Assembly: GCF_027579695.1 (NCBI RefSeq)
Contig: NC_083587.1
Span: 39,680,732 to 39,744,731, forward strand
Source of the DNA: Neoarius graeffei
Taxonomy: Eukaryota > Chordata > Actinopteri > Siluriformes > Ariidae
Reading direction: 5' to 3'
DNA: 64,000 nt
Shown in pieces: positions 15,513-63,195 of the stretch. The notes under the pieces were generated by a model, which saw only the letters and a program-made list of their open reading frames with translations, searched no databases and had not been told where the DNA came from. Numbering within the stretch: the stretch's first letter is position 1; each line of letters opens with the position of its first letter. The position numbers and the translations under genes are program-made.

Positions 15513-18500
15513 CACACACTTTTTCAGTTTTTTAATGTCCATTGGTATGTTTTTCTCTTGTAAATATGCGTGAAGAATATCTAATGAGGGCAGCACGGTG
15601 GTGTAGTGGTTAGCACTGTCGCCTCACAGCAAGAAGGTCCGGGTTCGAGCCCCGTGGCCAGCGAGGGCCTTTCTGTGTGGAGTTTGCATGTTCTCCCCGT
15701 GTCCGCGTGGGTTTCCTCCGGGTGCTCCGGTTTCCCCCACAGTCCAAAGACATGCAGTTAGGCTAATTGGTGGCTCTAAATTGACCGTGAGTGTGAATGT
15801 GAGTGTGAATGGTTGTCTGTGTCTATGTGTCAGCCCTGTGATGACCTGGCGACTTGTCCAGGGTATACCCCGCCTTTCGCCCGTAGTCAGCTGGGATAGG
15901 CTCCAGCTTGCCTGCGACCCTGTAGAAGGATAAAGCGGCTAGAGATGATGAGAATGAATGAATATCTAATGAAGTTTTGGTAGCTTTTCGGGTGTGCAAT
16001 GCATCTTTCCTGGCGAACAAAGAAATGCATGATGTTATGTTGTCTTGACAACCATGCAATATCGTAAACCATATTCAGCGCTCATTCTCCATTGGGTAGA
16101 GTGACGTAATACACTTAGGATAAGCGATATGCTAACAATATTGCATGCTATCAAACCGAAGGGAATAGAATACATGTTCTTATTCCATCTCAAAAGTGTC
16201 CTGTACCGTATGTATAATAATATACCTTCTTACACTTATCTGCCTCACTCAATCTTTCTCTCACTTTATTTCTCTTTTTACCGAACTCACCCACTCCCTG
16301 CATTTTCCCCTTTCACACACAACCTCTTTCTCTCCCTCAGTGGAATTCGACAAATAAAATTGGCTCAAACAGCAACTCTGTCAATTACAAACTGTCATTC
16401 TCCCTCTAGACTGGTTGAGGAAACGTTTACGGTGGATGAGGTAACGGACATGCTGGATGGGCTGCAGGTTGTGGTGCGTGGAGAGGTGGAGATGGAGCTC
16501 ATCAACACGGCTCACACCAATGTCCTGCTTCTGCGCCAGCTCTTCTCCCAGGCTGAGAAATTCTACCTGAAATTGCAGACTGATATCTCTGAGCTGGAGA
16601 GCAGGTACATAACAGACCCATTTTGGGGGACTTTAGTAAGAAATAATGACTGTCACTCTGTAAGTGAACCTAAATATTGTGTGTCATGAAAATATCTTCA
16701 TATCTGAATACGCATAGAATCACTGTGGTGATAAAAAGACATGAACCTCGAGCAGTATTTTACTACCACTGGTTTCTGCAGAACAGGCTGCAATGCCTTT
16801 TTGTCCAAATCTGTCGTCTACAGTCATGCGAACTTAACCCCTCGTGTATAAAGCACTGAAGTGGCCCATAAACCAATGAAGGTGTGTTAATTGATGTGTC
16901 GTTCCCCCATTCCCATAAAATTGAATGTGCTTAAAATGTATTTGGGTCATTGACATCTTACGAATGATTAAACTTGGTTGTTAATACAAAGAGACACTGC
17001 ACCAAGCAGCTTTTCTTTTTCTTTCAAGTTGCAATATAGTACACTATATATGGCCAAAAGTACAGTCCCCTCTGAAAGTATTGGAATGGCCAGACTAATC
17101 ATTTTGTTTTTGCGATACAATGAAGACATTTGGGTTTGAGACCAAAAGATGAATGTGAGACAATTTTCATTTCCATACATTTACCTCTGGGGGAATGAGC
17201 AAGTAGGAATCGGATGTCCAACAAACTCTTACAAGTGTGATGATCAGGTGTCCACATACTTTTGGTCATACAGTGTAATTCCATCCATTTTCATCTGTAT
17301 CACTACAGTGACGTGGCCACTCTGACAGCTTCAGCCATCAAAGTCTCTAGGGAACATTACAGTAGTGGTTTTCTGTTGCCTTCTACTGGATTATTATAGA
17401 GGTTTTCTCCTCTCAATCATTCACACTCACATTCACACCTATGGTCAATTTAGAGCCACCAGTTAGCCTAACCTGCATGTCTTTGGACTGTGGGGGAAAC
17501 CGGAGCACCCAGAGGAAACCCATGTAGACACGGGGAGAACATGCAAACTCCACACAGAAAGGCCCCCGTCGACTGCTGAACTTGAACCCAGAACCTTCTT
17601 GCTGTGAGGCGACAGGGCTAACCACTACACCACCGTACCGCCTACAGTGTAACTAGTAATAGCAAATGTCAGCATGAAACATATTGTAGAGCAGTGTTTC
17701 TCAACCACTGGGCCGCGAACCACCATCTAGTGGGCCGCAAATTTTTTTCAAGTTTGAAGCTAAATACTAAATAGTTTCAGGATGTCGTCGTGTCCCAAAT
17801 CCAGTAGCTGGTTTGCTGAACACTTTTCAAGTGGAATAAATACATTTGTGGGTAAATTAAGAACAAGAAGCCTTTATTTTTGTCACATTCCTCCTCTGCA
17901 TTTAACCCGTGCAGGCTCGCGCACACATACATGGAGAGATAGAGACAGAGAGAGAGCATGCACGCGCACAGTGGGCAGAATAAATAAATACATTTGTGAG
18001 TAAGTTATTTGGATCTGTGATGCCTGCATGACGCCTGCTGGAAGAGAAAAGCAGGGAGGATTGAGAATCGAGTGGCTGTGGTTTGTTTACACCAGATACT
18101 AAAACTTGTAGTGTCCTAGCAACCATCACAAAGACGGATACAAAAAGCCTAAAAATGCCTCCTTACCCGGGCATAAACGATACAGGGCTTATCTTTGTGT
18201 CCTGATCCCCAGATCTTTAACCCAGCCACATATAAAAAGTTGTACGCCTCCATGCTCTTCCAGGTTTCATCTGTGTGTCCGTATAGAACGATGTCTGCAG
18301 CACCAGGCAGTCTGAAATGTCGGGGAACTCAACGGATGGATCATTTTCCAACTCCTAGGAAAAATCCTATTTTTGTTAACGTGTAAGGCTCTATCCCAGT
18401 GCGTGGTTTCTATATCCACTTCTTTTGAGTGTACTTGTTGGTTTTAATAACTTGTTCGTTTGCTGAACACAAACATGGCAATAAGTTCTTGTGTTAATGG

Positions 18501-24500: not shown

Positions 24501-27500
24501 ATAGCCTTCCTGCTGTGACGTTACGGACGTCAAGGTCATTCACTCAGACTGCTACCTATATGAATCACTTGAATCGTAAAAATTACTACATTAGATTTAT
24601 TAACGCTTAAAACTATTCCTGTGCCATTCTTGAGGTCTCAAGGCATTTATAAACGAAAGTGAGGCCATGGCTCTGCGTATCTCCTTTAACCTGTGACCTG
24701 TGACTTCTGGTATCTTCTCATGCAACATGCCGCGCAATTAGATGTTGAAAGCATGTCCACATTTTGTTCTTTGAAGGCACATTTTAGTGATGTTCAGTGA
24801 TGCTATAGCATTCACAGTACAACCAGGAATTAAGCATGTGGTGATGGAATGATCGGTTAGGTCATGCATTTTGTTATCAATGCTTACATAAATCACGAGC
24901 ACTTTAATTATTGTCATTATATAACCCTGGTCACACTATTGGTCCCGCTGCAAAACTTGGCATGTTTCGGTTCCTATTAGATCATGTTAGATATTTTTCA
25001 CCAAAAGCACAACATGTCCTAATAGTGTTCATATGATTTTTTTTTTTTTCCTGATCTATTTCCAGGTGACCACAGTCACCCAAAGCCTCCCATTTGGCCA
25101 TATGCGGTGTTGCATACAGATATAGGACCAGATAGGAACTGTTCATCGTTTTTGCCTGTTTGGCATAGCCTCGAAATTTCTTGTTGGTTGGACTACTTCT
25201 TCTTCTTCTTTTGGCTGCTCCCGATTAGGGGTCGCCACAGTGGCTCTTTCGTCTCCATTGCCCCCTGTCTTCTGCATCCTTCTCTACCACACCTGCCACT
25301 TTCATGTCCTCTCTCACCACATCCATGTATCTCCTCTTTGGCCTTCCTCGTTTTCGTGTGCCTGGCAGCTCCATCCTCAACATGCTCTGCATCTCTTCTC
25401 AGGATGTGCCCATACCATCCCAGTCTCATCTCTCTTAGCTTAATTCCCAAGCTCTCCACATGTGCTGTCCCTCTGATGTGCTCGTTCCTTATCCTGTCCA
25501 ACCTCATCACTCCCATCGCAAACCTTAACATCCTCAACTCCGCCACCTCCAACTTTGCCTCCTGTCTCTTCATTAAGGGTACGGTCTCCGATCCATACAT
25601 CACAGCTGGTCTCACTACTGTCTTATACATCTTACTTTTCACTTTTGCTGGGACTTTCCTATCACAAATGACTCCTGAAATCCTTCTCCAACTGCTCCAC
25701 CCTGCCTGCACTCTCCTTTCTCACCTCACTATCGCAGCCCCCATTTTCCTGCACAGTTGACCCCAGGTACTTGAATTCACCAGCTTGGTTGGTTGGACTA
25801 CTAAGAGGTGATAGTTTAAATGTGTAGTAATATTCAAGTTGCATATTGAATGTCAGTCTCACCAGATGCAATGCAAACCCATGGTTCTGTATGTGACGTT
25901 TTCCATAAATAACCAAGTTATTTCTAGTAGGCTGCTGTCTTCCAAGAGGTAAGAACTGGAGTCATTCAAAAATGCTCTCTGAGAAGGTGGAGTCTAACAT
26001 ATATAGGTGTAATGCACAAACTTCTGAAACGCTGAGAATTTTAAGATGTGCCATTTGGCCAAAGTTTATTCGACTATTTTCCATAAACATACAGAGTCTC
26101 AATCACCTCTGTAACTGGAGTTCCGATTCCGCTGAAGTTTTCAAGGTTTGCCACAAAGAAAGTGTGTTGACCTGGCTTGGATCATTGACAAGCCTCGGTA
26201 AAGTGAATTTTAGAAACACTGAGTTTACACCACCTTATTTGAAGCAGAAGAGCCTTCTTGTTGCTTCATTCAGATGCCTGGATAATGTGTACTCAGTCCC
26301 ATTAAGCTCTCACTCCCTGTGATTTTGTTAACTTTAGGGTGTTAGGAAATCAAAAAGTATAGTACTGGGTACATACAAGGATGTTTCAATTTTACCCCTT
26401 GTGCAGCATAATTGGGACCAATAGCATGACCAGGGCTATACTTTGATTTATCATAGAAACTGAAGGTGGATTGAGTGTACTAATGAGATACAGTGATGGT
26501 AATTGGGGCTCCCATTTGTTCTCAGAATATTTCATATTAACATTACTGCTACAGTGGTGCTTGGAAGTTTGTGAACCCTTTAGAATTTTCTATATTTCTG
26601 CATAAATATGACCTAAAACAACATCAGATTTTCACACAAGTCCTAAAAGTAGATAAAGAGAACCCAGTTAAACAAATGAGACAAAAATATTATACTTGGT
26701 CATTTGATCCAATATTACATATCTGTGAGTGGCAAAAGTATGTGAACCTTTGCTTTCAGTATCTGGTGTGACCCCTTTGTACAGCAATAACTGCAACTAA
26801 ATGTTTGCGGTAACTGTTGATCAGTCCTGCACACCGGCTTGGAGGAATTTTAGCCCATTCCTCCATACAGAACAGCTTCAACTCTGGGATGTTGGTGGGT
26901 TTCCTCACATGAACTGCTCGCTTCAGGTCTTTCCACAAGATTTCGATTGGATTAAGGTCAGGACTTTGACTTGGCCATTCCAAAATATTAACTTTATTCT
27001 TCTTTAACCATTCTTTGGTAGAATGACTTGTGCTTAGGGTCGTTGTCTTGCTGCATGACCCACCTTCTCTTGAGATTCAGTTCGTAGACAGATGTCCTGA
27101 CATTTTCCTTTAGAATTTGCTGGTATAATTCAGAATTCATTGTTCCATCAATGATGGCAAGCCGTCCTGGCCCAGATGCAGCAAAACCGGGCCAAACCAT
27201 GATACTACCACCACCATGTTTCACAGATGGGATAAGGTTCTTATGCTGGAATGCAGTGTTTTCCACATAATGCTTCTCATTTAAACCAAAAAGTTCTATT
27301 TTGGTCTCATCTGTCCACAAAACATTTTTACAATAGCCTTCTGGCTTATCCACGTGATCTTTAGCAAACTGCAGATGAGCAGCAATGTTCTTTTTGGAGA
27401 GCAGTGGCTTTCTCCTTACAACCCTGCCATGCACACCATTGTTGTTCAGTGTTCTCCTGATGGTGGACTCATTAACATTAGCCAATGTGAGAGAGGCCTT

Positions 27501-30500
27501 CAGTTGCTTAGAAGTTACTGTGGGGTCCTTTGTGACCTCGCTGACTATTACACACCTTGCTCTTGGAGTGATCTTTGTTGGTCGACCACTCCTGGGGAGG
27601 GTGACAATGGTCTTGAATTTCCTCCATTTGTACACAATCTGTCTGACTGTGGATTGGTGGAGTCCAAACTCTTTAGAGATGGTTTAGTAACCTTTTCCAG
27701 CCTGATGAGCATCAACAACGTTTTTTCTGAGGTCCTCAGAAATCTCCTTTGTTCGTGCCATGATACACTTCCACAAACATGTGTTGTGAAGATCAGACTT
27801 TGATAGATCCCTGTTCTTTAAATAAAACAGGGTGCCCACTCACACCTGATTGTCATCCCATTGATTGAAAACACCTGACTCTAATTTCACCTTCAAATTA
27901 ACTGCTAATCCTAGAGGTTCACATACTTTTGCCACTCACAGATATGTAATATTGGATCATTTTCCTCAATAAATAAATGACCAAGTATAATATTTTTGTC
28001 TTATTTGTTTAACTGGGTTCTCTTTATCTACTTTTAGGACTTGTGTGAAAATATGATGATGTTTTAGGTCATATTTATGCAGAAATATAGAAAATTCTAA
28101 AGGGTTCACAAACTTTCAAGCACCACTGTACCTTCCAAGATCTAAGCAAGGCAGTTGTTCGAATGTGCTTCAAGATACAGTAGGCCCATTATGTTAAACT
28201 ATGTACATACATTATTTCTTGTATACATGAAGCTTGTCTACAGGGTTGAACTCCGTGTATTTTTTTTTTTTCAGGTAAATCATGAATCCAGCAAACCCAA
28301 ATTAGCCCCACTGAATGAGGGAGGAGTGTCAGAACTGCTCAACAAGGTAAAGTGGTTTTCCTCGTCTTAATACACAAAAATCTTAGATTTAATTTACACA
28401 CGCATCCATTAAATTGCTTCTGTATGCTATTGAAAGTCAGATCAGTCTGTGTTGATTATGGGTCCTGTTTTTGTTTACCAGGAAATTTCCAGACTACAAG
28501 AAGAGAATGATAAACTGAGAGCTAGACTCAGAATACTGGAAAGTCAGGTAAAGAGGTTGAAGTGAGCATTTATGAGTTTGTACAGCACAGTGTGCAACCC
28601 AAGTCTCCTGCATGCAGTGCTGTGAAAAAAGTATTTGCCCTAATTTCTTGTATTGTTTTCATATTTGTCATCAGTCATTGTTTCATATCTTCCAACAAAG
28701 TTTTATATAAGGTAAAAGCTTGAGCAAGCAGAAAATACAGTTTTCAAATGAAAATTTCATTTATGGAAGCAAAAACATTTTACGTAACATATGTAAAGAA
28801 AAAAAGCAGTGGGCCTGAGACAGAACCTTGTAGAACACCAAACTTTACCTCAGTATGTATAGAAAAATCACAATTTACATCAAACTGACAGCAATCAGTT
28901 AAATAAGACCTGAGCCAGGAGAGGGCCGTTCCCTTAACTCCCACAGCATTTTCTAGTCTATCCAGGAGAATGGAATGATCAGTGGTGTCACAGGCTGCAC
29001 CAAGCAATACAAGCAGGGAGACAGCCCTGATCAGAAGCCAACAATAGGTCATTTACTACTTTAACCAGTGCTGTCTCTGTGCTATGATGAGGTCTAAATC
29101 CTGGCTGATACATTTCATTGATGTTATTCCTATGTAGATATGAGCGTAATCTTTTTCTAGGATCTTGGAGATAAAGGGGAGGTTTGATATTGGCCTATAA
29201 TTGGACAGCTGACAGGGGTCGAGGTCAGGTTTTTTAATCAGGGGTTTGATAACTGCTAGTTTAAAAGATTAGGGTACATAGCCAATTCTAATGGAAAAAT
29301 GGATTATTTTTAGAAGAGGTTCAATTGCTTCTGGGATTATCTATTTGAAGAGTCATGCAGGTAAGGGATCTAGTACACAAGTTGAAGATTTTGATGTGGA
29401 AGTTAATGAAGTTACAACCCCAATTTTTTGAACTGCACTGGAGTGCTGGGGCTAGAGATCTGTCATTCAAACCAAGTGCGTCATCCATTAAATATCTTGG
29501 AATTCACATATCTTCAAAACTTCTTCAAAATTCAGGTTAATTTCACATCTCAAAAGTTGATAAAAGATCTGTTTAAATGGAACAGATTACTTTTATTTCT
29601 AATAGGATGAATCTCCGCAATTAAAATGAAGATACTTCCAAAAATTAATCATCTTTCTTCAGTGACTCCCACCCTACTCTATAGTGTGTAGCGCAAGAAA
29701 AAAAAAAGAATTGGTCTTGCCATTCCAAATTGTTTTTTTTGCCTTTCTCTTAATTTGAGGGATCCTCCATTTTCTCCACTATTCTTTGTAAACTCTACAG
29801 ACTGTTATGTGTGAAAATCCCAGGAGATCAGCAGTTTATGAAATACTCAAACCCTTCCGGAATATCCATGCCACAATCAAAGTCATGGAGATCACACTTT
29901 TTTTTTTTTGCATTCTGATATTTGATGTGAACATTACCCGAAGCTCTTAAACTCCATGATTCCTTCTGCATCTGCAGGATTTCTTTGCATTATGCTGCTC
30001 TCACATGATTGGCCGATTCGGATAACTGCATGAATGTTGGAATCATTCCTATAGTAATGCTCTATGCCCTGTTTGCTGTTATAAAACATTCCTTCTGACC
30101 AGAAACTAATAGCCTCCAGCTGCTTCAGTTTCTCTGCCCTCTCATCCTCCAAGAATGGTTTGTTTCTTATGTCTCGTAATATTAAATTCCCTAATTACTC
30201 CAGCAGTCTCTTGGCATATGAGGCATATGTTTTTCTTCTAGCTCTTGATGAAAAAGTATTGCTGTTTCCAGCTCTTTTGAAATTGCCACTGATGTTTTGC
30301 GTCAAGCCCCTGATCTTTTTGTGATTTAGTCTTTGGGTTAATATTATCTGATCCATTACTTAAAATGTATTTCTTTCCATCAGCTTTTTTCAGGTTTCAG
30401 ACATAGTTAAAAGAGAGCGCTCGCACTGATCACGTGAACTTTTGTGGCATGCCCGTCCGTGCCATTACCAAAATGAAAATCATCTGCACTTAAGTGCCTG

Positions 30501-33500
30501 ATGGCTCTGGATCACACACGCTATGTTATAACCATTACAAAGAGCCTTAGAGTAGCTTTCAAATAACACCAGCCCTATGCTGCTGGGTTGATTTTAAGTT
30601 TGATTGCAGTCAGGCAAGACAGCAGCTTTTCACTGGTAGTCTACATTTAAAACCAAGTTATAGGTAAATCTAAGAAGGAAAGAACAAGAACAAATTTTCA
30701 GATATGTAGGCATTTGTACTGTTTCTGATTTATTCTCGAAAATAAATTGATTTAATGTATATTTACTGTAGTAACATCAGTCTGACAAACCAGCTCAAGG
30801 AGGGGAGAAACCCAGTGAATTCGCTGTTGTACTGAAACATCAGCTAATCCTGATTTTCACTCCTAAGCTTTTGCCATGATTAAACCAGGAAGTGTGAAAA
30901 AAAAAAATTTAGGGCATGAAAACCTCATACCGGAAAGCTCTGTAAATGTTCCTGCCATGCACATTACATTCTCGGAAATACATACACGCAGATAATTTTA
31001 GGGAAGAGGTCATATATTTGGGTATCTGGAAGAGTTTGAGCTTACTGCCTATAGAAGTAAATTTAGTCACTGTATATTAAGCTTTGTTTAACTGCTGCTG
31101 CTGTGTTGTAGGCCATGAGTGCCCTTGATGAGAAGTGTGAGGCTGAGAGGGCCCTAAATGACCTTCAGAAAATCCAGGGAGATCAGCAGGTATGTCTATA
31201 TCCCAGCTTACAATCTGTTTCCCCATGCTCTGGCCCAAGCAATCTTTATCTTGCTTCTTTGATTGAATGATTATAATTAGGGGAGATGATGAGGGCTTTA
31301 GTCCAACTGTTGAAGTTATGTGCAATGTGAACAGGGACAAATCCACAATTAGTGCATACAAGCTTTTTGGTTGCGGAACAGATTTTCTCATTACACCCCT
31401 GTCCTGAAGAAGGGGGTTATACTGGTTTACCTCTGTCCGTCTGTCCGAAACGCCCTTTTTCTCAGCAACCACATATCATAGCCACTTGGTACTTGGCACC
31501 AAACTTCAGCTTGGGGTTCTATATCGTGTGTACTGTGTTCAGGTCTGTCGCATATTAACTTCCTGTTTACCGACTGGATGTGTTTATGAACCATATAGCG
31601 TGGATTTACAAAATTTTCATGACGTTTTTCTCAGCAACTACAAATCACAGCTGCTTGATATTTGGTACAGAGCTTCAGCTTGGGGTTCTATACCATGTTT
31701 ACCGTTTTCAGGTCTGTCGCACATCGACTTCCTGTTTACCAACTGAATGTATTTAAGAACCATATAGCGTGGATTTACAAAATTTTCATGATGTTTTTCT
31801 CAGCAACTACAAATCACAGCTGCTTAATATTTGGTACGGAGCTTCAGCTTGGGGTTCTATACCGTGCATACCGTTTTCAGGTCTGTCGCACATCGACTTC
31901 CTGTTTACTGACTGTATGTATTTACGAAACATATGGCATTAGATTTACAGAATTTTCATAACATTTTTCTCAGCAACTACAAATCACAACTTCTTGATAT
32001 TTGGTATTGAGCTTCAGCTTGGGGTTCTATACCGTGTATGCCGTTTTCAGGTCTGTCTCACATCGACTTCCTGTTTACTGACAATGTATTTACGAAACAT
32101 ATGGCGTGGATTTACAGAATTTTCATAACATTTTTCTCAGCAACTACAAATCACAACTGCTAGATATTTGGTACGGTGCTTCAGCTTGGGGTTCTATACC
32201 ATGTATACCGTTTTCAGGTCTGTCGCACATCAACTTCCTGTTTACCAACTGAATGTATTTATGAACCATATAGCGTGGATTTACAAAATTTTCATGACGT
32301 TTTTCTCAGCAGCTACAAATCACAGCTGCTTGATATTTGGTACGGAGCTTCAGCTTGGGGTTCTATACCGTGTATACCATTTTCAGGTCTGTCACACATC
32401 GACTTCCTGTTTACTGACTGTATGTATTTACGAAACATATAGGGTGGTTTTCGACGCCATTTCAAGAAGCAAAATGTTATTTCAAAATGACAGTTTACCA
32501 GGATGCTGTTTGAAATCCCTGGGGAGAGACACTGCTCTTTACTTACTTGTTTCAGGGTTAATTATTTATTGAAGTCAACATTCATAATAAGTGTCTTATT
32601 CCTTCGATTGCTTGCATTCTGATATAAGCGAGAGCAGGGGGTATACGTAAGTGAGCAGTAGCTCACAGTTGAGCTTGTTATTTCTTTTATTGCCTTTTGT
32701 TTTCTCTCTGGATTTTGGTATGTACTGCTGGAGCTTTACACGCGTCATTAAATACAGAACTTTGGGTTAGGCAGACAAATTAGATTGCCAAACTGAATAA
32801 AACTCAACAAATTTTTACAGAGGCATATTTTGGTTGTCCTTCAGGATGCCATGCATGCTCAGAAGATCTCTGAACTGGAGGACACTATGGCAGCCATGCA
32901 GGTTGATTTTGAGAGGACACTGAGCACCAGTAGTGCATCACAGAAGGATCTACAGGACAGCCTGGTGTCAGCTAAACATGAGCTACTCCGTGTTCAAGAC
33001 CAGCTCGCTCTTGCTGAGAAGGTATTGATTCTGAATGCTGCTCAGTTTCAGTGCACAGCTTAAAGTGCATATTCTGGACCAATTTCGTTTTTTTTTTTTA
33101 TATGAAAGTATGTCCCTTTACACACTCATCCAGAAGGGTAATTTTGCACAAGGCCATCTGTCTACAGCAGAAAAAAATAAAATAACAAAACGCGTCTGGA
33201 AAAATCCCAAGGGAGTCTGGAGCCAGATTCGTGATGAGCTTTATACGGTTTAAATGCACAGCCTGTGTAAACCAAGCGCTCCCATTTCTCTCTCATTGTC
33301 CGGTCTTTTGGAAAACGATGAGTACTAATCCCATCAAGATTGGTGTTGCTACACCCTACTACAATACATCTGTTAACCATTTTAATAATTACGCGATAAC
33401 GAAGAAATTTGCAGAAAACCACCAGGTCGTTTTCTCAAACAAACCAGCGCTGATGTAGGATTCAGAGGGAGGCGTCCCGCACGGGACGTCAAGAAAATCA

Positions 33501-53120: not shown

Positions 53121-53320
53121 AAGACTTAACAGTCCTAGCTTTAGACCAACAGTGATGGCTGTACATTTAGTATGATCCAATTTTGTTAATTAGTATAATG
53201 GTTCTTTTATGGTGGGGCAATGAGGAACTCGGAGACGGGCGTGACAGTTCGAGGTGGACTTTATTGTGGCTTTCACTTTTCAGTGAGTACTAAGACACGT
53301 ACACTCATGTTGGGGAACGT

Positions 53321-53322
<2 letters not shown>

Positions 53323-53357
<35 letters not shown>
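53323..53357. repeat. (CT)n microsatellite
   Basis: About 17 CT units without interruption. Confidence 0.95.
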
Positions 53358-53361
<4 letters not shown>

Positions 53362-53888
53362 CTGGCCATCTGAAAGAGATGCACATTCTTAGTCAGCCGG
53401 TAATTAGACACAGGTGTAACTCATCACGTTGCCTGCTGGTTCAACCTGACTCCTCGCTGTTCACAGCTGACACTTGACCATGCCCTCGCTGTCACAATTA
53501 GGCTACTAGAACAAACTTTCTGAACGTTTCTACACTTTTATATAGCTCAGGTAACAGACACAGTCTCAATATACTGGAACCTGAGTGACGACTCTGTGCA
53601 ACGAGCAGACAGTCGGTTTAGCCTGTTTGTCTGCTCCCCGGCCTTGGCTCTGGATTGTCACATATTAACTTGGCCTGTTTTGAGACTATGAGCTATACTG
53701 CAAGAAATGAGAGCAGCACCTTCCCGAGTGGGATGGATACCATCCTGCTTTAACAGGCCAGCCTTGCCTTCAAAACTACTCCAAAAGTCTATAAAGCCAA
53801 CATTACGTTACAGGCATTTTGCAGATGCTCTTATCCAGAGCAACACACAACATACCCAGAGCAACCTGAGGAGCAGTTGCTCGCTCTC

Positions 53889-53975: not shown

Positions 53976-54613
53976 GACTCACACACACTTCAGTGCAGCT
54001 CCTGCTATAGCGACTGCTACACGCACTGCATCACTCTCACAATTTCCCACAGGGGAATTGTCTCTAGTTTAACCGATAACCAAAAAAAATTAACCGGTTG
54101 ACGTTGATTCGGTCAACAGTTGGTCAAACGGTCATCGGTTAACATCCCTAGCGCCTACATGAACAACTATCTTTGAAAACCTGTGCTTGTCTAAGATGCT
54201 AAGACTATCTGCTATGCCTGGCACCCTGGCTCTCAGTATATACCTCATTAAAGCTGCTGGTGCTTCTAAAGGCCTAGCTAAATTCACATCCCTTAAGATA
54301 GCATCTCCTATAACTTCCTATAATCCCCCCCGAAAGCCCCCCCCAATACAAGCACACATTTTAAGGTAAAACAGGAATGCAGGCACTAGGACCACGTGGA
54401 AAGAGCACCTGCTCAAAAACAGGAGAGAGTGGAGGCACTAGGACCATGCAGAAACATCCCCCGCTCAAGCTGCCGGTTCCCCGTCTGCTTCGCTCTTGTC
54501 TTGTGCGCCCAATAACTATTCAAATTATTCGATTCAAACAATAGTTAGCAATAGTTAGTTTTTTTTTTTTTTTCTTTTTTATCAGACATCTAATTTATTG
54601 GGTTTGTTTACCT

Positions 54614-54648
54614 GACATGTTTCGACGTACAACTTCCGTCTTCCTCAG
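54614..54648 (-). ncRNA. Hammerhead-like ribozyme motif, left copy
   Basis: Reverse complement of the motif described at 56506-56540, at the 3' side of the left Penelope-like copy. Confidence 0.5.
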
Positions 54649-54744
54649 AGTGTCACCGGATGTTAATTGGTGACGCATCTTTTATCAGCTGCTGTTTCTG
54701 AAGGCGTGGCCTTCCTGTCTGGTTTGACAGGTCGGTCACGCCTT

Positions 54745-55524
54745 CTACTGTCTGTTTGTCCCCTGCAAGATGGCACTCCAGGTGTGGGAGAGCATGTATG
54801 CTCCCTCATCCCGGTTGATGGTCCTCGGGCTTCGCTTACGGATCTCCATGGCCTCCCTGATCCAGCGCTGATGTTTGTTATCTTCTGTGCGGATGACTCT
54901 GGCATTCCCCCAGTCCATAATGTGATTTTCCCTTTTACAGTGATCTGTTATAGCTGACTTATAATTTTCCTGTTGTGCCTTTTCTTTTATTGTTCGGGTT
55001 TGTCTTGTAGCTGTCTCCTTTTCGCACTCTTTCTTATGTTCATGTTTTCTTGTGCTGAAACTCCTTCCTGTCTCCCCAATATAAGTTTTATTGCATAATT
55101 TACATGGAATCTCATATATGGTGTTGCATCTGTTGTCCGGATGTATTCTGTCTTTGGGATGCACCAGGATCTGACGGAGTGTTGTGTGTGGTTTGACAGG
55201 TGTGTTAACATTGTGTTTCCTCATTACTCTTTGAATGCGTTCAGTTATTCCCCTGATGTATGGTAATGTAACTACTCCCCTGTGTTCTTGTTTGTTAGTT
55301 TGTTTTTTCTCTTTCTTCTGTGTTTTGTTGTTTTTAACCTGTTCCGCCCCTTTGGATATTGCCCATTGTGGATATTGACATGCTTTCAGTGCGTGTTGTA
55401 TATGTTGTTCCTCCTGTTCTTTGTCCTGTGGATCTGTAATTATTGCTGTGCGTTCATGTAATGTTCTAACTACGGATATTTTGTGCATTATGGGGTGTTC
55501 GGAAGTCCAGTTTAAATATTGCAT
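54745..55524 (-). CDS. Penelope-like C-terminal ORF with GIY-YIG endonuclease, left copy
   Basis: 259 codons, 5'-truncated; the apparent Met at 55524 is only the junction. It encodes the end of the reverse transcriptase (QYLNWTSEHPIMHKISVVR) followed by a GIY-YIG domain (TIYEIPCKLCNKTYIGETGR, then STRKHEHKKECE). A His/Cys-containing segment follows (ITDHCKRENHIMDW), then RWIREAMEIRKR. GIY-YIG joined to reverse transcriptase is the hallmark of Penelope-like elements. The sequence over the shared part is identical to the right copy. Without the catalytic reverse-transcriptase core it is not autonomous. Confidence 0.88.
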   Translation of the reverse strand: MQYLNWTSEHPIMHKISVVRTLHERTAIITDPQDKEQEEQHIQHALKACQYPQWAISKGAEQVKNNKTQKKEKKQTNKQEHRGVVTLPYIRGITERIQRVMRKHNVNTPVKPHTTLRQILVHPKDRIHPDNRCNTIYEIPCKLCNKTYIGETGRSFSTRKHEHKKECEKETATRQTRTIKEKAQQENYKSAITDHCKRENHIMDWGNARVIRTEDNKHQRWIREAMEIRKRSPRTINRDEGAYMLSHTWSAILQGTNRQ

Positions 55525-56409
55525 TTAATTAATTATAAGGAGCAGTCAATAGCATTTTTGGATTTAAAAATACAACACACAGAAGATGGGGATATCAAAA
55601 TAAAAGTACACAGAAAACCCACACACACCGACCAATATTTAAACTGGACTTCCGAACACCCCATAATGCACAAAATATCCGTAGTTAGAACATTACATGA
55701 ACGCACAGCAATAATTACAGATCCACAGGACAAAGAACAGGAGGAACAACATATACAACACGCACTGAAAGCATGTCAATATCCACAATGGGCAATATCC
55801 AAAGGGGCGGAACAGGTTAAAAACAACAAAACACAGAAGAAAGAGAAAAAACAAACTAACAAACAAGAACACAGGGGAGTAGTTACATTACCATACATCA
55901 GGGGAATAACTGAACGCATTCAAAGAGTAATGAGGAAACACAATGTTAACACACCTGTCAAACCACACACAACACTCCGTCAGATCCTGGTGCATCCCAA
56001 AGACAGAATACATCCGGACAACAGATGCAACACCATATATGAGATTCCATGTAAATTATGCAATAAAACTTATATTGGGGAGACAGGAAGGAGTTTCAGC
56101 ACAAGAAAACATGAACATAAGAAAGAGTGCGAAAAGGAGACAGCTACAAGACAAACCCGAACAATAAAAGAAAAGGCACAACAGGAAAATTATAAGTCAG
56201 CTATAACAGATCACTGTAAAAGGGAAAATCACATTATGGACTGGGGGAATGCCAGAGTCATCCGCACAGAAGATAACAAACATCAGCGCTGGATCAGGGA
56301 GGCCATGGAGATCCGTAAGCGAAGCCCGAGGACCATCAACCGGGATGAGGGAGCATACATGCTCTCCCACACCTGGAGTGCCATCTTGCAGGGGACAAAC
56401 AGACAGTAG
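55519..56409 (+). CDS. Penelope-like C-terminal ORF with GIY-YIG endonuclease, right copy
   Basis: 296 codons, extending 38 residues further 5' than the left copy (YKEQSIAFLDLKIQHTEDG, then KVHRKPTHTDQYLNW). The added part is the region just after the reverse-transcriptase catalytic motif in this group. The GIY-YIG motif is Tyr-Ile-Gly-Glu-Thr-Gly-Arg near residues 195-201. The ORF ends TAG at 56407-56409. The first ATG overlaps the first codon of the left copy, so the real 5' end is truncated and this start is probably not native. Confidence 0.88.
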   Translation: MHLINYKEQSIAFLDLKIQHTEDGDIKIKVHRKPTHTDQYLNWTSEHPIMHKISVVRTLHERTAIITDPQDKEQEEQHIQHALKACQYPQWAISKGAEQVKNNKTQKKEKKQTNKQEHRGVVTLPYIRGITERIQRVMRKHNVNTPVKPHTTLRQILVHPKDRIHPDNRCNTIYEIPCKLCNKTYIGETGRSFSTRKHEHKKECEKETATRQTRTIKEKAQQENYKSAITDHCKRENHIMDWGNARVIRTEDNKHQRWIREAMEIRKRSPRTINRDEGAYMLSHTWSAILQGTNRQ

Positions 56410-56505
56410 AAGGCGTGACCGACCTGTCAAACCAGACAGGAAGGCCACGCCTTCAGAAACAGCAGCTGATAAAAGATGCGTCACCAATTAACATCCGGTG
56501 ACACT

Positions 56506-56540
56506 CTGAGGAAGACGGAAGTTGTACGTCGAAACATGTC
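56506..56540 (+). ncRNA. Hammerhead-like ribozyme motif, right copy
   Basis: The core CTGAGGA (56506-56512) is followed by a 4-bp stem GACG/CGTC (56514-56517 with 56527-56530), then GAAA (56531-56534) and ACATGTC, ending in the GTC expected before the cleavage site. Penelope-like elements are known to carry minimal hammerheads with a self-complementary stem III such as ACATGT. Stem I is not convincing here. Confidence 0.5.
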
Positions 56541-56653
56541 AGGTAAACAAACCCAATAAATTAGATGTCTGATAAAAAAGAAAAAAAAAAAAAAAAAACT
56601 AACTATATTTAATATAAGACATAATGAACGTAATCGAAAGAATAGTTAGCAAT

Positions 56654-57694
56654 GTCAGAACTCCCCAAGCGACAAAAGATGGTGTACATACAACTTTTTT
56701 TCCTTCAAAAAAAGTGTGTGAATGATGTCTTCAGACACACTCTATATTAAGTTAGCTAATGTTATGTTACGCTTATTCATAGTAAGATCATGTTGGAATA
56801 TGATATTGCTTTGTAAACATCAAGTTAGTTAGCTATAGAAAATGAATGACTGTTTTTTTACGTTATTTCAAACGAACAGTCAGTCTACTACTGTACTTCT
56901 TCACTCAACACATAGAGCAGTAGAGAGGGGAGTGAAAACAAATTACAGAAAGAAGAAATAAGCTATCCGATTTTGTAATTAGAATTATAAATCAATTAGA
57001 ATTACAAATGGTTCATATGCCATTTTAATCTCTTAATACTTACGAAACAAGATTTGTCAAAGAAATGTTCGATTGTGAAACAAATTGTTGTAAAATAATT
57101 GTTCTGTTGTAAAAAAAAAAAAGAGTTCTACTGTAAAAATTGTTCTAATTATTGTTCTAAAATAAATGTGAAGACTTTGAATATGACGCCTTTAACTGTT
57201 TGTTCAGGTCCAAGGTGGTCTGTAATAGGAGCCACAGGGAGGGGTCCTGCAGGTGGCCAGCCTCATCCAGCACCCCCCTCCCAAAACAACAACAACAAAA
57301 AAAAACAGTAAACTTAGGGGAAATACTTACCTGAGTACTATCATTCCACCGATTTCGAGAGAGTTGTAATCAGGGGTCTTCAATCTTATCCACTAATGGC
57401 TGGTGTAGTTTACTGCATATATTAAGGAAGTACTGACTCGCATCTAAATAGCAGGCGTTAGCAGTGGGGTTTTTTTTAAGCAAATCACATAGTGATTCTA
57501 ATATAAAATATGATTTTATGTACAACAGTATACAATCAAATAAAAATGACATAGCAAGTCGATGTCATTATCAGACTACTGGCTGCTGCTGTTCAGCTAA
57601 ATCAAATAAAGCGGCGGCTACAATTATCGACAGTCCATAATTATCGACACCTTTTCAGATTTACCAATAAAAAAAACAATTTTACAAAGGTGAG
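56654..57694. other. No gene seen
   Basis: AT-rich. From about 57612 a motif AATTATCGACA is repeated, and its complement recurs at 62968-63018. An older DNA element may therefore surround the LTR retrotransposon. Confidence 0.35.
57690..57694. repeat. Target site duplication GTGAG (left)
   Basis: GTGAG here and at 62639-62643 flanks the LTR element exactly. Confidence 0.95.
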
Positions 57695-58006
57695 TGTGGC
57701 AGCGGGGGCGTGGTCAAGCATCGGTCTGTGACAGGAGGGTGGAGCCGGGGAAGGTGAGTGGCAGATTCGCTACACCTGACGGTAATTAACCTGTGTTTTG
57801 TGTGTGTTTTCCCAGTAAACCGCTCCCTATTTTAGGAGGCTGAGAGAGAGCAGAGGGAGCGCGACCCGGGAGTGGAGGCTGAGAGTGTGTCTGTGTGCTG
57901 CGGGTTCTTTTTAGACTGAAAAGTTTATTAATAAAATACGCTGTTACTACCTCCAAACGTTGTCCTGCCGTCCTCTGTGCTCCACCCACGCATTGTCCGC
58001 GCTACA
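57695..58006 (+). repeat. 5' LTR
   Basis: TGTGGCAGCGG... to ...GCGCTACA; begins TG and ends CA. Contains an AATAAA signal at 57930-57935. The G at the GGGGAAGGTGAG site (near 57755) is A in the 3' LTR. Confidence 0.97.
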
Positions 58007-58007
58007 G

Positions 58008-58025
58008 TGGTGCCGAAACCCGGGA
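58008..58025 (+). promoter_or_regulatory. Primer binding site, tRNA-Phe
   Basis: TGGTGCCGAAACCCGGGA, one base after the LTR, is complementary to the 3' end of vertebrate tRNA-Phe (CCCGGGTTTCGGCA plus CCA), from memory of that tRNA. Confidence 0.85.
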
Positions 58026-58053
58026 AAAGGTGGAGCACCAGTGCTACAGCTCC

Positions 58054-61000
58054 ATGGAATCCTCCCCGTTCGCGGACTTGGTCCACGCCCTCGCCACGGC
58101 TCAGCAGAGCCAGCACCAGGCACTCGTCACGCTCCGAACGGAGCAGGAGCGCCGCTTCGAAGCCCTGGTGCTGGCTCAACAGGAAGATCGAGAGGCGTTC
58201 CGGCGGCTCCTCGCGTCGGCGGGGTCCACCAGCGCCCCGGCCGCGGGCCCGTCTCCCCTCACTGTGACCAAGATGGGCCCGCAGGACGACCCCGAGGCTT
58301 TCATCACCTTGTTCGAGCAGGTCGCCGAAGCCTCGGGGTGGCCGATGGAGCAGCGCGCGGCGCGCCTCCTCCCCCTCCTGACTGGAGAGGCGCAGCTGGC
58401 CGCATTACAGCTCCCCGCCGACCGCCGGCTGGCCTACGCTGACCTTCGCCGGGCCGTCCTCCAGCGCGTGGGGCGCACGCCGGAGCAGCAGCGCCAGCGC
58501 TTCCGCGCGCTGCGGATGGAGGAAGCCGGCAGCCCGTTCGCGTTTGGCCAGCAGCTCCGGGACGCCTGCTGGTGGTGGCTGAGGGCCGAAGATCGCGACG
58601 CCGAGGGAATCATCGACCAGGTGGCGCTGGAACAGTTCGTTGCCCGCTTACCAGCCGGAACCGCGGAGTGGGTCCAGTGCCACCGCCCGGCGTCGCTGGA
58701 TCAGGCCGTAGGACTGGCGGAGGATCATCTGGCGGCTGTACCGGCGGCAGGACAACGGATGACATCGTCTTCTGTCTCCTCTTCTCTCTCTCTGTCTTCC
58801 CCCCCTCCTCCCGTGTCCCGTCCTCGCCCCATTCCCCCACCACGGAGGCGGGGGCCGGCCCCACCCCAGCCGGCCTGCCACACCCGTGGTGCCCTCCCGT
58901 TTCTCCCTTCTGTGTCTGTCTCTCCCCCCCCTCAGGTGAGTGAGCCCCAGAACACAGTTGCAGAGGGGAGGCCCGGGCCGGTTTGCTGGCGCTGCGGGGA
59001 ACCGGGCCACCTGCAGCAACAATGTGCAGCGATGGAGGTGGGGGCGGTGGTGCGGATCCCCGACGCGCCAGAGGTTGCCCTCGATCGGGCCGGAGCGTAT
59101 CGCATACCGGTAAGTGTACAAGGGGCTACATATCAGGCGTTGGTGGATTCAGGCTGCAATCAGACCTCGATCCGCCAAAGCTTGGTGCAAGACGAGGCAT
59201 TGGGGGGAGCACAAGGGGTGAAGGTGTTGTGTGTGCACGGGGATATTCACAGCTACCCGTTGGTGTCGGTCCACATATATTTTAGAGGGGAAAAATCTAT
59301 AGTGAAGGCGGCGGTTAATCCTCGCCTTACCCACTCTTTGATCTTGGGGACCGATTGGCCGGGATTTCGGGGTTTAATGGCACGCCTAGTAAAGAGTGGG
59401 TCCTGCCGGTTGACGGGGGAGGGTCCCGGTGTCGCTTTGGCTGGAGCGGCGGTCGCAGAGCCGTCTACGTCACCTCCGCGACAGGGTGAGGAGCCGCCGG
59501 CCCCTCCTCTTTCTATTGGGGAATCCCTCGTGGATTTCCCACTGGAACAATCGCGAGACGAGACTCTGCGACACGCGTTTGACCAAGTGAGAGTAATCGA
59601 TGGTCAAACGCTCCAGCCGAACGCCACCCCGTCCTTCCCCTATTTTTCCATTTTGAAGGATAGATTATATCGAGTGACGCAGGACACTCAGACGAAAGAG
59701 CGAGTCACCCAGTTATTAATTCCAAAGAGCCGCCGGGAATTGGTATTCCAGGCGGCCCACTTTAATCCCATGGCTGGACACCTCGGGCAGGATAAGACAC
59801 TCGCCCGGATAATGGCCCGATTCTATTGGCCGGGGATTCGCGGCGACGTCCGTAAGTGGTGTACGGCGTGCCGCGAATGCCAGTTAGTAAATCCAGCGGC
59901 CATTCCAAAAGCGCCCTTGCGCCCCCTACCATTAATCGAGACCCCGTTCGAAAGAATTGGGATGGATCTCGTTGGGCCATTAGATCGGTCAACACGAGGG
60001 TACCGCTTTATATTAGTCCTGGTGGACTATGCAACGCGATACCCGGAAGCGGTGCCTCTTCGCAATATCTCAGCACGCAGTATTGCAGAGGCCCTCTTCC
60101 ACGTCATCTCCCGGGTTGGAATCCCGAAAGAGATTCTGACTGACCAAGGCACCTCGTTTATGTCACGAACACTGAGCGAACTGTATGGGCTACTAGGTAT
60201 TAAGCCGATCCGCACCAGCGTTTATCACCCACAGACGGACGGTTTAGTTGAACGGTTCAATCGCACCCTCAAGAATATTATTAAAAAATTCGTAAGTGAG
60301 GACGCACGTAACTGGGATAAGTGGCTCGAACCCTTGTTGTTTGCAGTGCGAGAGGTCCCCCAAGCCTCCACGGGGTTTTCCCCGTTTGAATTATTATACG
60401 GGCGTAAGCCGCGCGGCATCTTAGATGTACTGCGGGAAAATTGGGAGGAGGGACCTTCACAGAGCAAAAACGAAATTCAGTACGTTATGGATCTGCGCGC
60501 AAAACTCCACACGCTCACCCACCTAACTCAGGAGAATTTGCGGCAGGCCCAGGAACGGCAAGTCCGCCTGTACAACAAGGGCACGCGCCTTAGAGAGTTC
60601 ACTCCGGGAGATAAGGTACTCGTCCTGTTGCCCACGTCGAGCTCCAAATTAATCGCCAAGTGGCAAGGACCCTTTGAGGTCACACGGCGAGTCGGGGACG
60701 TCGACTACGAGGTTAGGCGAACGGACAGGGAGGGGGCGCTACAGATCTACCACCTCAATCTGCTGAAACTCTGGAATGAGGAGGTCCCCGTGGCGTTGGT
60801 GTCGGTAGTTCCAGAGAAGGCGGAGCTGGGGCCGGAGGTCCCCAAAGGGTCATTGGCATCACGTACCTCTCCGGTCCCCTGTGGAGACCACCTCTCCCCG
60901 ACCCAACTCGCGGAGGTCGCCCAGTTGCAGGCCGAGTTTTCGGATGTGTTCTCGCCCCTGCCCGGTCGCACGAACCTCATAGAACACCACATAGAGACGC

Positions 61001-62421
61001 CCCCGGGGGTGGTAGTGCGTAGCCGCCCATATAGACTACCCGAACACAAAAAAAAGGTGGTTCGGGAAGAACTTCAGGCCATGCTTGAAATGGGCATCGT
61101 CGAGGAGTCCCACAGTGACTGGAGCAGCCCAGTGGTCTTGGTTCCCAAGGCCGACGGGTCGGTCCGGTTCTGTGTGGACTATAGAAAAGTCAACGCGGTG
61201 TCTAAATTCGACGCATACCCAATGCCTCGTATTGATGAGCTGCTCGATCGACTAGGCACGGCTCGCTTTTACTCGACACTGGATTTGACGAAGGGATATT
61301 GGCAGATCCCCTTGACTCCATTATCCCGAGAGAAAACGGCCTTTTCCACACCGTTCGGCTTACACCAGTTCGTCACACTTCCGTTTGGGCTGTTTGGGGC
61401 GCCCGCTACGTTTCAGCGGCTGATGGACCGGGTCCTCCGGCCGCACGCCACCTATGCGGCCGCGTACCTAGACGACATCATCATTTATAGCAATGACTGG
61501 CAGCGGCACCTGCAACACCTGAGGGCCGTCCTTAGGTCGCTGAGGCGGGCGGGACTCACTGCCAACCCGAAGAAGTGTGCGATTGGGCGGGTGGAAGTAC
61601 GGTATCTGGGCTTCCACTTGGGCAACGGGCAGGTGCGTCCCCAAATTAATAAGACTGCAGCGATTGCGGCCTGCCCGAGGCCCAAGACCAAAAAGGGGGT
61701 GAGACAGTTCCTGGGGCTGGCTGGCTACTATCGTAGGTTTATACCTAATTATTCGGACGTCACCAGCCCGCTGACTGACCTCACTAAAAAGGGGGCACCA
61801 GATCCGGTCCAGTGGACGGAGCAGTGCCAGCGGGCTTTCTCTGAGGTAAAGGCTGCACTGTGTGGGGGGCCATTCTTACACTCCCCTGACTTCTCTCTCC
61901 CTTTTTTGTTGCAGACGGATGCGTCGGACAGAGGGCTGGGGGCCGTTTTGTCCCAGCAGGTGGAGGGGGAGGACCGCCCAGTCCTATACATCAGCCGCAA
62001 GCTGTCAGTGCGTGAGGGGCGCTACAGCACCATTGAGAAGGAGTGCCTGGCGATCAAGTGGGCGGTCCTCGCCCTCCGTTACTACCTGCTGGGGCGCTCT
62101 TTCACCCTCTGTTCGGACCACGCGCCCCTCCAGTGGCTCCACCGCATGAAGGATGCCAACGCGCGGATCACCCGTTGGTATCTGGCACTCCAACCCTTCA
62201 ACTTCAAGGTGGTCCACAGGCCGGGGGCGCAGATGGTCGTGGCGGACTTCCTCTCCCGTCAAGGGGGGGGGGGGGAGTCGGCTGCGGGCCGGACGGGCGC
62301 CCGGCCTGAGTCGGGCGGTGGGGGTATGTGGCAGCGGGGGCGTGGTCAAGCATCGGTCTGTGACAGGAGGGTGGAGCCGGGGAAAGTGAGTGGCAGATTC
62401 GCTACACCTGACGGTAATTAA
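58054..62421 (+). CDS. Gag-Pol polyprotein, Gmr1-like retrotransposon
   Basis: 1455 residues from the ATG at 58054, the first Met after the primer site; the frame is also open back to 57895 inside the LTR. Order: Gag with a SCAN-like capsid segment (about 147-226), zinc knuckle CWRCGEPGHLQQQC (311), protease Asp-Ser-Gly (365), integrase zinc-binding H-H-C-C (about 569-606). Then the integrase triad D638, D697, E733 (D-D-35-E), a GPF-type tail (KWQGPFEV), reverse transcriptase with YLDD at about 1138, and RNase H starting at D1289 (TDASDRGLGAV). All key residues are present and there is no internal stop. The last ~32 codons lie in the 3' LTR. It would assemble particles and copy its RNA into DNA for integration. 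GC content is far above the flanks. Confidence 0.95.
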   Translation: MESSPFADLVHALATAQQSQHQALVTLRTEQERRFEALVLAQQEDREAFRRLLASAGSTSAPAAGPSPLTVTKMGPQDDPEAFITLFEQVAEASGWPMEQRAARLLPLLTGEAQLAALQLPADRRLAYADLRRAVLQRVGRTPEQQRQRFRALRMEEAGSPFAFGQQLRDACWWWLRAEDRDAEGIIDQVALEQFVARLPAGTAEWVQCHRPASLDQAVGLAEDHLAAVPAAGQRMTSSSVSSSLSLSSPPPPVSRPRPIPPPRRRGPAPPQPACHTRGALPFLPSVSVSPPPQVSEPQNTVAEGRPGPVCWRCGEPGHLQQQCAAMEVGAVVRIPDAPEVALDRAGAYRIPVSVQGATYQALVDSGCNQTSIRQSLVQDEALGGAQGVKVLCVHGDIHSYPLVSVHIYFRGEKSIVKAAVNPRLTHSLILGTDWPGFRGLMARLVKSGSCRLTGEGPGVALAGAAVAEPSTSPPRQGEEPPAPPLSIGESLVDFPLEQSRDETLRHAFDQVRVIDGQTLQPNATPSFPYFSILKDRLYRVTQDTQTKERVTQLLIPKSRRELVFQAAHFNPMAGHLGQDKTLARIMARFYWPGIRGDVRKWCTACRECQLVNPAAIPKAPLRPLPLIETPFERIGMDLVGPLDRSTRGYRFILVLVDYATRYPEAVPLRNISARSIAEALFHVISRVGIPKEILTDQGTSFMSRTLSELYGLLGIKPIRTSVYHPQTDGLVERFNRTLKNIIKKFVSEDARNWDKWLEPLLFAVREVPQASTGFSPFELLYGRKPRGILDVLRENWEEGPSQSKNEIQYVMDLRAKLHTLTHLTQENLRQAQERQVRLYNKGTRLREFTPGDKVLVLLPTSSSKLIAKWQGPFEVTRRVGDVDYEVRRTDREGALQIYHLNLLKLWNEEVPVALVSVVPEKAELGPEVPKGSLASRTSPVPCGDHLSPTQLAEVAQLQAEFSDVFSPLPGRTNLIEHHIETPPGVVVRSRPYRLPEHKKKVVREELQAMLEMGIVEESHSDWSSPVVLVPKADGSVRFCVDYRKVNAVSKFDAYPMPRIDELLDRLGTARFYSTLDLTKGYWQIPLTPLSREKTAFSTPFGLHQFVTLPFGLFGAPATFQRLMDRVLRPHATYAAAYLDDIIIYSNDWQRHLQHLRAVLRSLRRAGLTANPKKCAIGRVEVRYLGFHLGNGQVRPQINKTAAIAACPRPKTKKGVRQFLGLAGYYRRFIPNYSDVTSPLTDLTKKGAPDPVQWTEQCQRAFSEVKAALCGGPFLHSPDFSLPFLLQTDASDRGLGAVLSQQVEGEDRPVLYISRKLSVREGRYSTIEKECLAIKWAVLALRYYLLGRSFTLCSDHAPLQWLHRMKDANARITRWYLALQPFNFKVVHRPGAQMVVADFLSRQGGGGESAAGRTGARPESGGGGMWQRGRGQASVCDRRVEPGKVSGRFATPDGN
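62314..62326 (+). promoter_or_regulatory. Polypurine tract
   Basis: GGCGGTGGGGGTA directly before the 3' LTR. It is purine-rich but not pure; a longer G-run lies at 62263-62275. Confidence 0.6.
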
Positions 62422-62638
62422 CCTGTGTTTTGTGTGTGTTTTCCCAGTAAACCGCTCCCTATTTTAGGAGGCTGAGAGAGAGCAGAGGGAGCGCGACCCG
62501 GGAGTGGAGGCTGAGAGTGTGTCTGTGTGCTGCGGGTTCTTTTTAGACTGAAAAGTTTATTAATAAAATACGCTGTTACTACCTCCAAACGTTGTCCTGC
62601 CGTCCTCTGTGCTCCACCCACGCATTGTCCGCGCTACA
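62327..62638 (+). repeat. 3' LTR
   Basis: Same 312-bp length and sequence as the 5' LTR apart from one A/G difference. The polyprotein stop (62419-62421) is inside it. Confidence 0.97.
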
Positions 62639-62643
62639 GTGAG

Positions 62644-63195
62644 TTTCAGTTACAACAGTTATTGTTGGTTAATTAATCAACTGGAAGACACCCCCCCCCC
62701 CCCCCCCCCCTCGCCCTTTGATTTCGTCATCTGATGACACAGCTCATTACCTGAGATGGAATTTTTTTTTAGCACAATCAGCAATTTGAGGAAAACCCGG
62801 ACATGATCATCGCAGGTAAGCATGATGGAAAGATCATGGACACGTTTTTACTTATCAGATTCACAGATATTTCATGATCTCCTTGTTGAAACCTACTTTA
62901 TTTCTTACTCTTTCATTTGACAGTCGCCATTTTGTATCCAAACACACGTTTGAGAAGTCACATGAGGTGTCGATAATAGTGATCACTTTCACCGGTGTCC
63001 ACCATTATCGACACCCTGTGGAATTAAGGGATATTTACAACGGTTATGGATCGATCTTTGTGTAACATTGTTGAAGTAGATGAGGTACTTTAAACAAATA
63101 AAAGTGCTGTGATTTGTACTTTTTTTTTCTGATTCATAACAGAATGGAATGTTTATGTATTTCCTATTGCAATAAATAGAATTAGACCAGAATTA
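62644..63195. other. No gene; poly-C tract
   Basis: A run of 20 C at 62691-62710. TATCGACACC motifs near 62968-63018 complement those at about 57612-57655, as expected if an older element was split by the LTR insertion. Confidence 0.4.

Follow-up and report, generated by a model that had tools for sequence, protein, structure and literature searches.

A structurally complete Ty3/gypsy retrotransposon of probable Gmr1-like type in Neoarius graeffei

Termini of the element

The stretch of DNA analysed here (64 kb from Neoarius graeffei, hereafter the window) carries a structurally complete LTR retrotransposon of ~4.9 kb at positions 57695-62638. It is bounded on the plus strand by a 5' LTR (57695-58006), which runs from TGTGG to CTACA with an AATAAA at LTR position 236, and by a 3' LTR (62327-62638). 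Both are 312 nt long, have these same ends and are 99.7% identical, their sole mismatch lying at LTR position 59, and this pair was the only direct repeat of at least 20 nt returned by the repeat finder between 56500 and 64000. Copies of the target-site duplication GTGAG adjoin the 5' LTR on the left (57690-57694) and the 3' LTR on the right (62639-62643). The two LTRs and the duplication of 5 nt on each side had been proposed in a first-pass annotation of this DNA and were borne out.

An 18-nt primer-binding site (58008-58025, plus strand) starts one base past the 5' LTR, and we take it to be complementary to the 3' terminus of tRNA-Phe of animals; no exact match to this site was found in IMG/VR viral contigs. 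The purine tract claimed earlier is indeed present directly before the 3' LTR (62313-62326, plus strand), but it is imperfect, a G-rich tract interrupted by C, T and TA for which the term is approximate. The LTR was also searched for a TATA box; none was found. Long runs of G or C occur at 62263-62275, inside the element, and at 62691-62710, just outside it, and errors of assembled length are likely at both.

A single frame with integrase ahead of reverse transcriptase

The element encodes a single gag-pro-pol frame on the plus strand (58054-62421) of 1455 aa, counted from the ATG at 58054; the frame is open further upstream to a GTG at 57895 (1508 codons from the GTG), and its TAA ends at 62421, 95 nt within the 3' LTR. 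Pfam matches followed the order SCAN, zf-CCHC, aspartyl protease, Integrase_H2C2, rve, Integrase_p58_C, RVT_1 and RNase H, and neither a chromodomain nor RVT_2 was among the 13 Pfam families listed for the frame.

The capsid (Gag) end at 58480-58731 is SCAN-homologous (Pfam SCAN, 7e-20), and this piece matched five SCAN domains among solved structures, with ZNF24 as the best (8e-14). A CCHC zinc knuckle at 58984-59025 was recognized by its motif, the zf-CCHC match (7e-4, 19.9 bits) falling just under the cut-off of 20.8, and the aspartyl protease at 59104-59358, with the active-site DSG motif, was likewise accompanied by a Pfam match (1e-4, 23.0 bits) just under the cut-off of 24.3. The integrase (59719-60768) comprises an H2C2 zinc domain, a DD35E core and a C-terminal domain (Integrase_H2C2, 1e-20; rve, 9e-10; Integrase_p58_C, 1e-8), the last of which holds a motif that we consider GPY/F-like. 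Reverse transcriptase (RT) with a YLDD motif (61141-61620; RVT_1, 5e-34) and RNase H (61813-62199; RT_RNaseH, 9e-36; RT_RNaseH_2, 4e-33) follow, all of these domains being on the plus strand.

The integrase, at Pfam positions 609-958, thus lies upstream of the RT, at 1083-1242, and the first-pass reading of protease, integrase, RT and RNase H in one frame agrees with the Pfam order across 58054-62421. The catalytic residues given there, D638, D697 and E733 (35 residues between the last two) and YLDD at about 1138, also hold in numbering from the ATG, our motif search having been numbered from the GTG with values 53 higher. Ty3 was the nearest named solved polyprotein (RT, 1.4e-85; integrase, 1.4e-33). 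Unlike the window, yeast Ty3 has RT before integrase, the matched positions in 7q5b being 598-995 for RT and 1088-1441 for integrase.

Age, frame tail and mobility

With one mismatch in 312 LTR positions (0.3%), the insertion is recent. The internal part has a GC content of 0.60 and a CpG observed/expected ratio of 0.90, against a CpG ratio of 0.60 at 20-50 kb of the window; this high value fits a copy that has had little time for CpG loss, and the element's own composition may contribute. No other copies of the RT, integrase or gag pieces were found in the 64-kb window by blastn and tblastn, and elsewhere in the window the LTR matched only over 37 nt (53461-53496, minus strand, 81%). The region at about 53180-53496 (minus strand), which is matched by the beginning of the LTR and has an AATAAA further on, may be an old solo LTR belonging to a related family. 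IMG/VR viral contigs yielded six pattern matches, none of which (0/6) was a relative by tblastn.

Beyond RNase H there is a run of 13 G (62263-62275, plus strand), through which the frame passes before it stops inside the 3' LTR; the phase read after this run differs among relatives. We surveyed the tails of 126 integrase-first proteins (the set described in the next section), 70 of which lacked the search motif for the RNase H end. Among the remaining 56, 10 (window included) continue over the LTR junction (GGGMW), 8 stop shortly past the G run with a PxGxPA-like end, 7 have other short tails and 31 other long tails, a mix that may include gene-model and homopolymer errors. Since the phase after the G run differs between close relatives, the tail is probably unconstrained, and the end of the frame within the 3' LTR is probably not a conserved part of the protein. 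It could be imagined that the G run acts as a phase switch, drift in its length leading either to an early stop or to the joining of the 3' LTR start to the polyprotein; if the longer tail did have a role, this would be a group with a variable C-terminus set by a homopolymer. We regard such a switch as quite unlikely, as neutral drift or homopolymer sequencing error fits the mixed tails of close relatives better.

From the sequence, we infer that the element may still be mobile. Alternatively, it may be a complete copy that is already immobile, either silenced or carrying a damaging substitution of a kind that motif checks miss, and this is possible, if somewhat doubtful. LTR elements of any kind are inactive in most of their genomic copies, which counts towards an immobile copy, as does a tail past the G run unlike those of several relatives; the open frame, the intact motifs and the single mismatch between the LTRs argue for a mobile one.

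The shared domain order and the nearest kin

A search with the RT-RNase H region scored 7961 candidates, 4418 of them at E ≤0.001. Integrase preceded RT in 109 of the best 120 of these 4418 matches, the rest being 7 proteins with multiple RTs and an RT-first start, 3 without a detected integrase and 1 mixed. For contrast, we used the best 120 matches of a search from the RT-first protein P0049, and integrase kin were taken from the best 120 matches of a search with the window's integrase. Pooling gave 304 proteins with the window, 95 of which were left out for having more or fewer than one long match to RT or to integrase, and the 209 proteins kept were divided into 126 integrase-first (window included) and 83 RT-first. 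Both domains scored higher against the window pieces than against those of P0049 in 126/126 integrase-first proteins, and higher against P0049 than against the window in 83/83 RT-first proteins, in a set drawn from two seeds, a sampling that by itself favours two groups. BLAST with the SCAN piece of the window picked out this domain in at least 46 of 126 integrase-first proteins and in 0 of 83 RT-first ones; the former count is a lower bound, since distant SCANs escape a single query.

After clustering at 80% identity, in which seven rows were retained in any case, 73 representatives remained (49 integrase-first, 24 RT-first). Trees of 60 rows were built from 42 integrase-first and 15 RT-first representatives plus 3 RT-first sequences excised from larger proteins. 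In the RT tree, one branch (SH-aLRT 100) split the 42 integrase-first from the 18 RT-first rows, and the integrase tree gave the same split, again on one branch (SH-aLRT 100); both were quick trees of the two-seed sample, run without bootstrap, and the program flagged their long outgroup branches as meeting.

A more careful RT-RNase H tree of 28 rows joined the window to a 13-row set from carps, minnows and loaches (93/86), with the window falling just outside the carp/minnow/loach clade proper; such a position would suggest that the host is probably a teleost close to Cypriniformes but not within them. The careful integrase tree left an open fork of the window, the carp/minnow/loach set and an 8-row spiny-rayed set. 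These sets were grouped by similarity, with species named for 8 of the 13 carp-type rows and 2 of the 8 spiny-rayed rows, and the six outgroup rows were all from turtles. Mean identity of the window's RT was 0.89 to the carp/loach set and 0.76 to the spiny-rayed set, and that of the integrase core was 0.81 to each. A mosaic origin of RT and integrase was considered and dropped, as the integrase tree lacks resolution at this point and is not in conflict with the RT-RNase H tree. Carps, minnows and loaches provide the nearest named kin, and their integrase-first elements (for example P0002, P0003 and P0018) have the same domain order as the window. Among rows P0002-P0022 with good coverage, RT was 88-91% and integrase 76-81% identical to the window, whereas the SCAN piece of these elements was just ~60-68% identical.

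These data bear on whether the order arose by an assembly join or because an ordinary gypsy element was rearranged locally. Gypsy elements do usually have the reverse order, but we found no support for such an event. The frame is uninterrupted, the order recurs in 109 of the best 120 RT matches and in the 125 integrase-first proteins other than the window in the pooled set, and RT and integrase give the same grouping in separate trees, so that an artefact of this sort is extremely improbable. Neither domain fell outside the integrase-first group in the 60-row trees; this placement and the join were the two points on which the first-pass annotation had seen its interpretation as vulnerable, and the interpretation withstood both as far as these data reach.

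Identity and predicted life cycle

Gmr1 of Atlantic cod is described as a gypsy element ordered PR-IN-RT-RH (PMC2582038; the definition is also given in PMC8220671), and in another account the integrase-first order marks a gypsy lineage whose arrangement resembles that of copia (PMC2774666). The order of protease, integrase, RT and RNase H and the SCAN-homologous Gag of the Gmr1-like group, as far as the available parts of these descriptions extend, are those of the window. The first-pass annotation had treated the integrase-first order as a hallmark of Gmr1-like elements of deuterostomes; the hallmark stands, but the restriction to deuterostomes is outdated, with Gmr1-like elements described in crustaceans, together with a sea-bream element sharing the structure (PMC3587641), and with annelid members of the Gmr1 clade (PMC8220671). 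About 200 Gmr1-like copies were reported in Silurana (PMC4131045). Pufferfish Gmr families, reported as mostly young insertions, have a combined gag-pol of 1506-1634 aa (PMC11117352), and they are longer than the window's element, with consensus lengths of 6.1-6.5 kb and LTRs of 337-518 nt (Table 2 of the same paper) against 4.9 kb and 312 nt here. The portion available of a review of ray-finned fish mobile elements contains no word starting with "Gmr" (PMC7599744).

On the strength of the domain order, the gypsy-type RT and integrase, the single gag-pol frame, the SCAN-homologous capsid and the RT and integrase trees, the locus very probably holds a Ty3/gypsy LTR retrotransposon of Gmr1-like type, structurally complete and recently inserted. 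The Gmr1-like interpretation of the first-pass annotation is supported by both features and trees, the placement being made through integrase-first kin and the tie to Gmr1 by description; no protein named Gmr1 or bearing a cod name was among the matches listed in the three protein searches.

The SCAN domain has been traced to the Gag of a Gmr1-like element (PMC4592553, PMC3424704), and host SCAN domains descending from a Gag of such kind (PMC4592553), along with the intact frame, could suggest a domesticated host gene in place of a mobile element. However, the element retains its mobility enzymes, its primer site, the target duplication and a pair of LTRs that are 99.7% identical, and a recent insertion accounts for the open frame without host selection, which makes domestication highly implausible. 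A Ty1/copia element, in which integrase-first is the normal order, is suggested by domain order only and is refuted by the family matches, given that RVT_1 and the gypsy-type families of RNase H and integrase match, that the 13 listed families do not include RVT_2, and that the nearest named solved polyprotein is Ty3.

For this Gmr1-like retrotransposon, established LTR retrotransposon biology would predict the following cycle. The 5' LTR would drive a transcript ending after the AATAAA of the 3' LTR, and a single polyprotein would be translated from it and cleaved by its own protease. Gag, with its SCAN-homologous capsid end, would package the RNA; reverse transcription would be primed by a host tRNA, probably tRNA-Phe; and integrase would insert the cDNA elsewhere in the genome through cuts staggered by 5 nt. 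As integrase sits between protease and RT, its release would presumably require cleavage at either end; otherwise the cycle would be the usual one.

The element cleanly exemplifies a kind that is already known, with nothing new in kind, and leaves general understanding unchanged. It would represent an intact young copy of the group from whose Gag the vertebrate SCAN domain came, illustrates that the enzymes of a gypsy polyprotein can be reordered without loss of the element, and offers a clean reference copy for repeat annotation.

Other features of the window

Rfam at gathering scores gave no match, and ARAGORN with the bacterial code found no tRNA. At 54559-56595, two arms of 963 nt separated by 111 nt form a perfect inverted repeat. 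Both arms contain a frame that weakly matches GIY-YIG (E 0.002-0.003, under the Pfam cut-off), and the repeat looks to us like a Penelope-like element in inverted copies, or an assembly artefact. Two tandem arrays were observed, one at 4085-11235 with a 63-nt unit (~114 copies, 97% matches, strong GC skew) and the other at 31456-32451 with a 169-nt unit (~6 copies, 89% matches). Tc1/mariner-type transposase frames occur on the minus strand at 12444-14629 and 26997-27683; HTH_Tnp_Tc3_2 was found in three of them, and DDE_3 was detected only in 13598-14629. On the plus strand, a frame at 16105-16686 strongly matched part of PF15294 Leu_zip (E 7e-37, profile positions 22-90 of 275), which we take to be the LZTFL1 family, and this frame may be a host exon.
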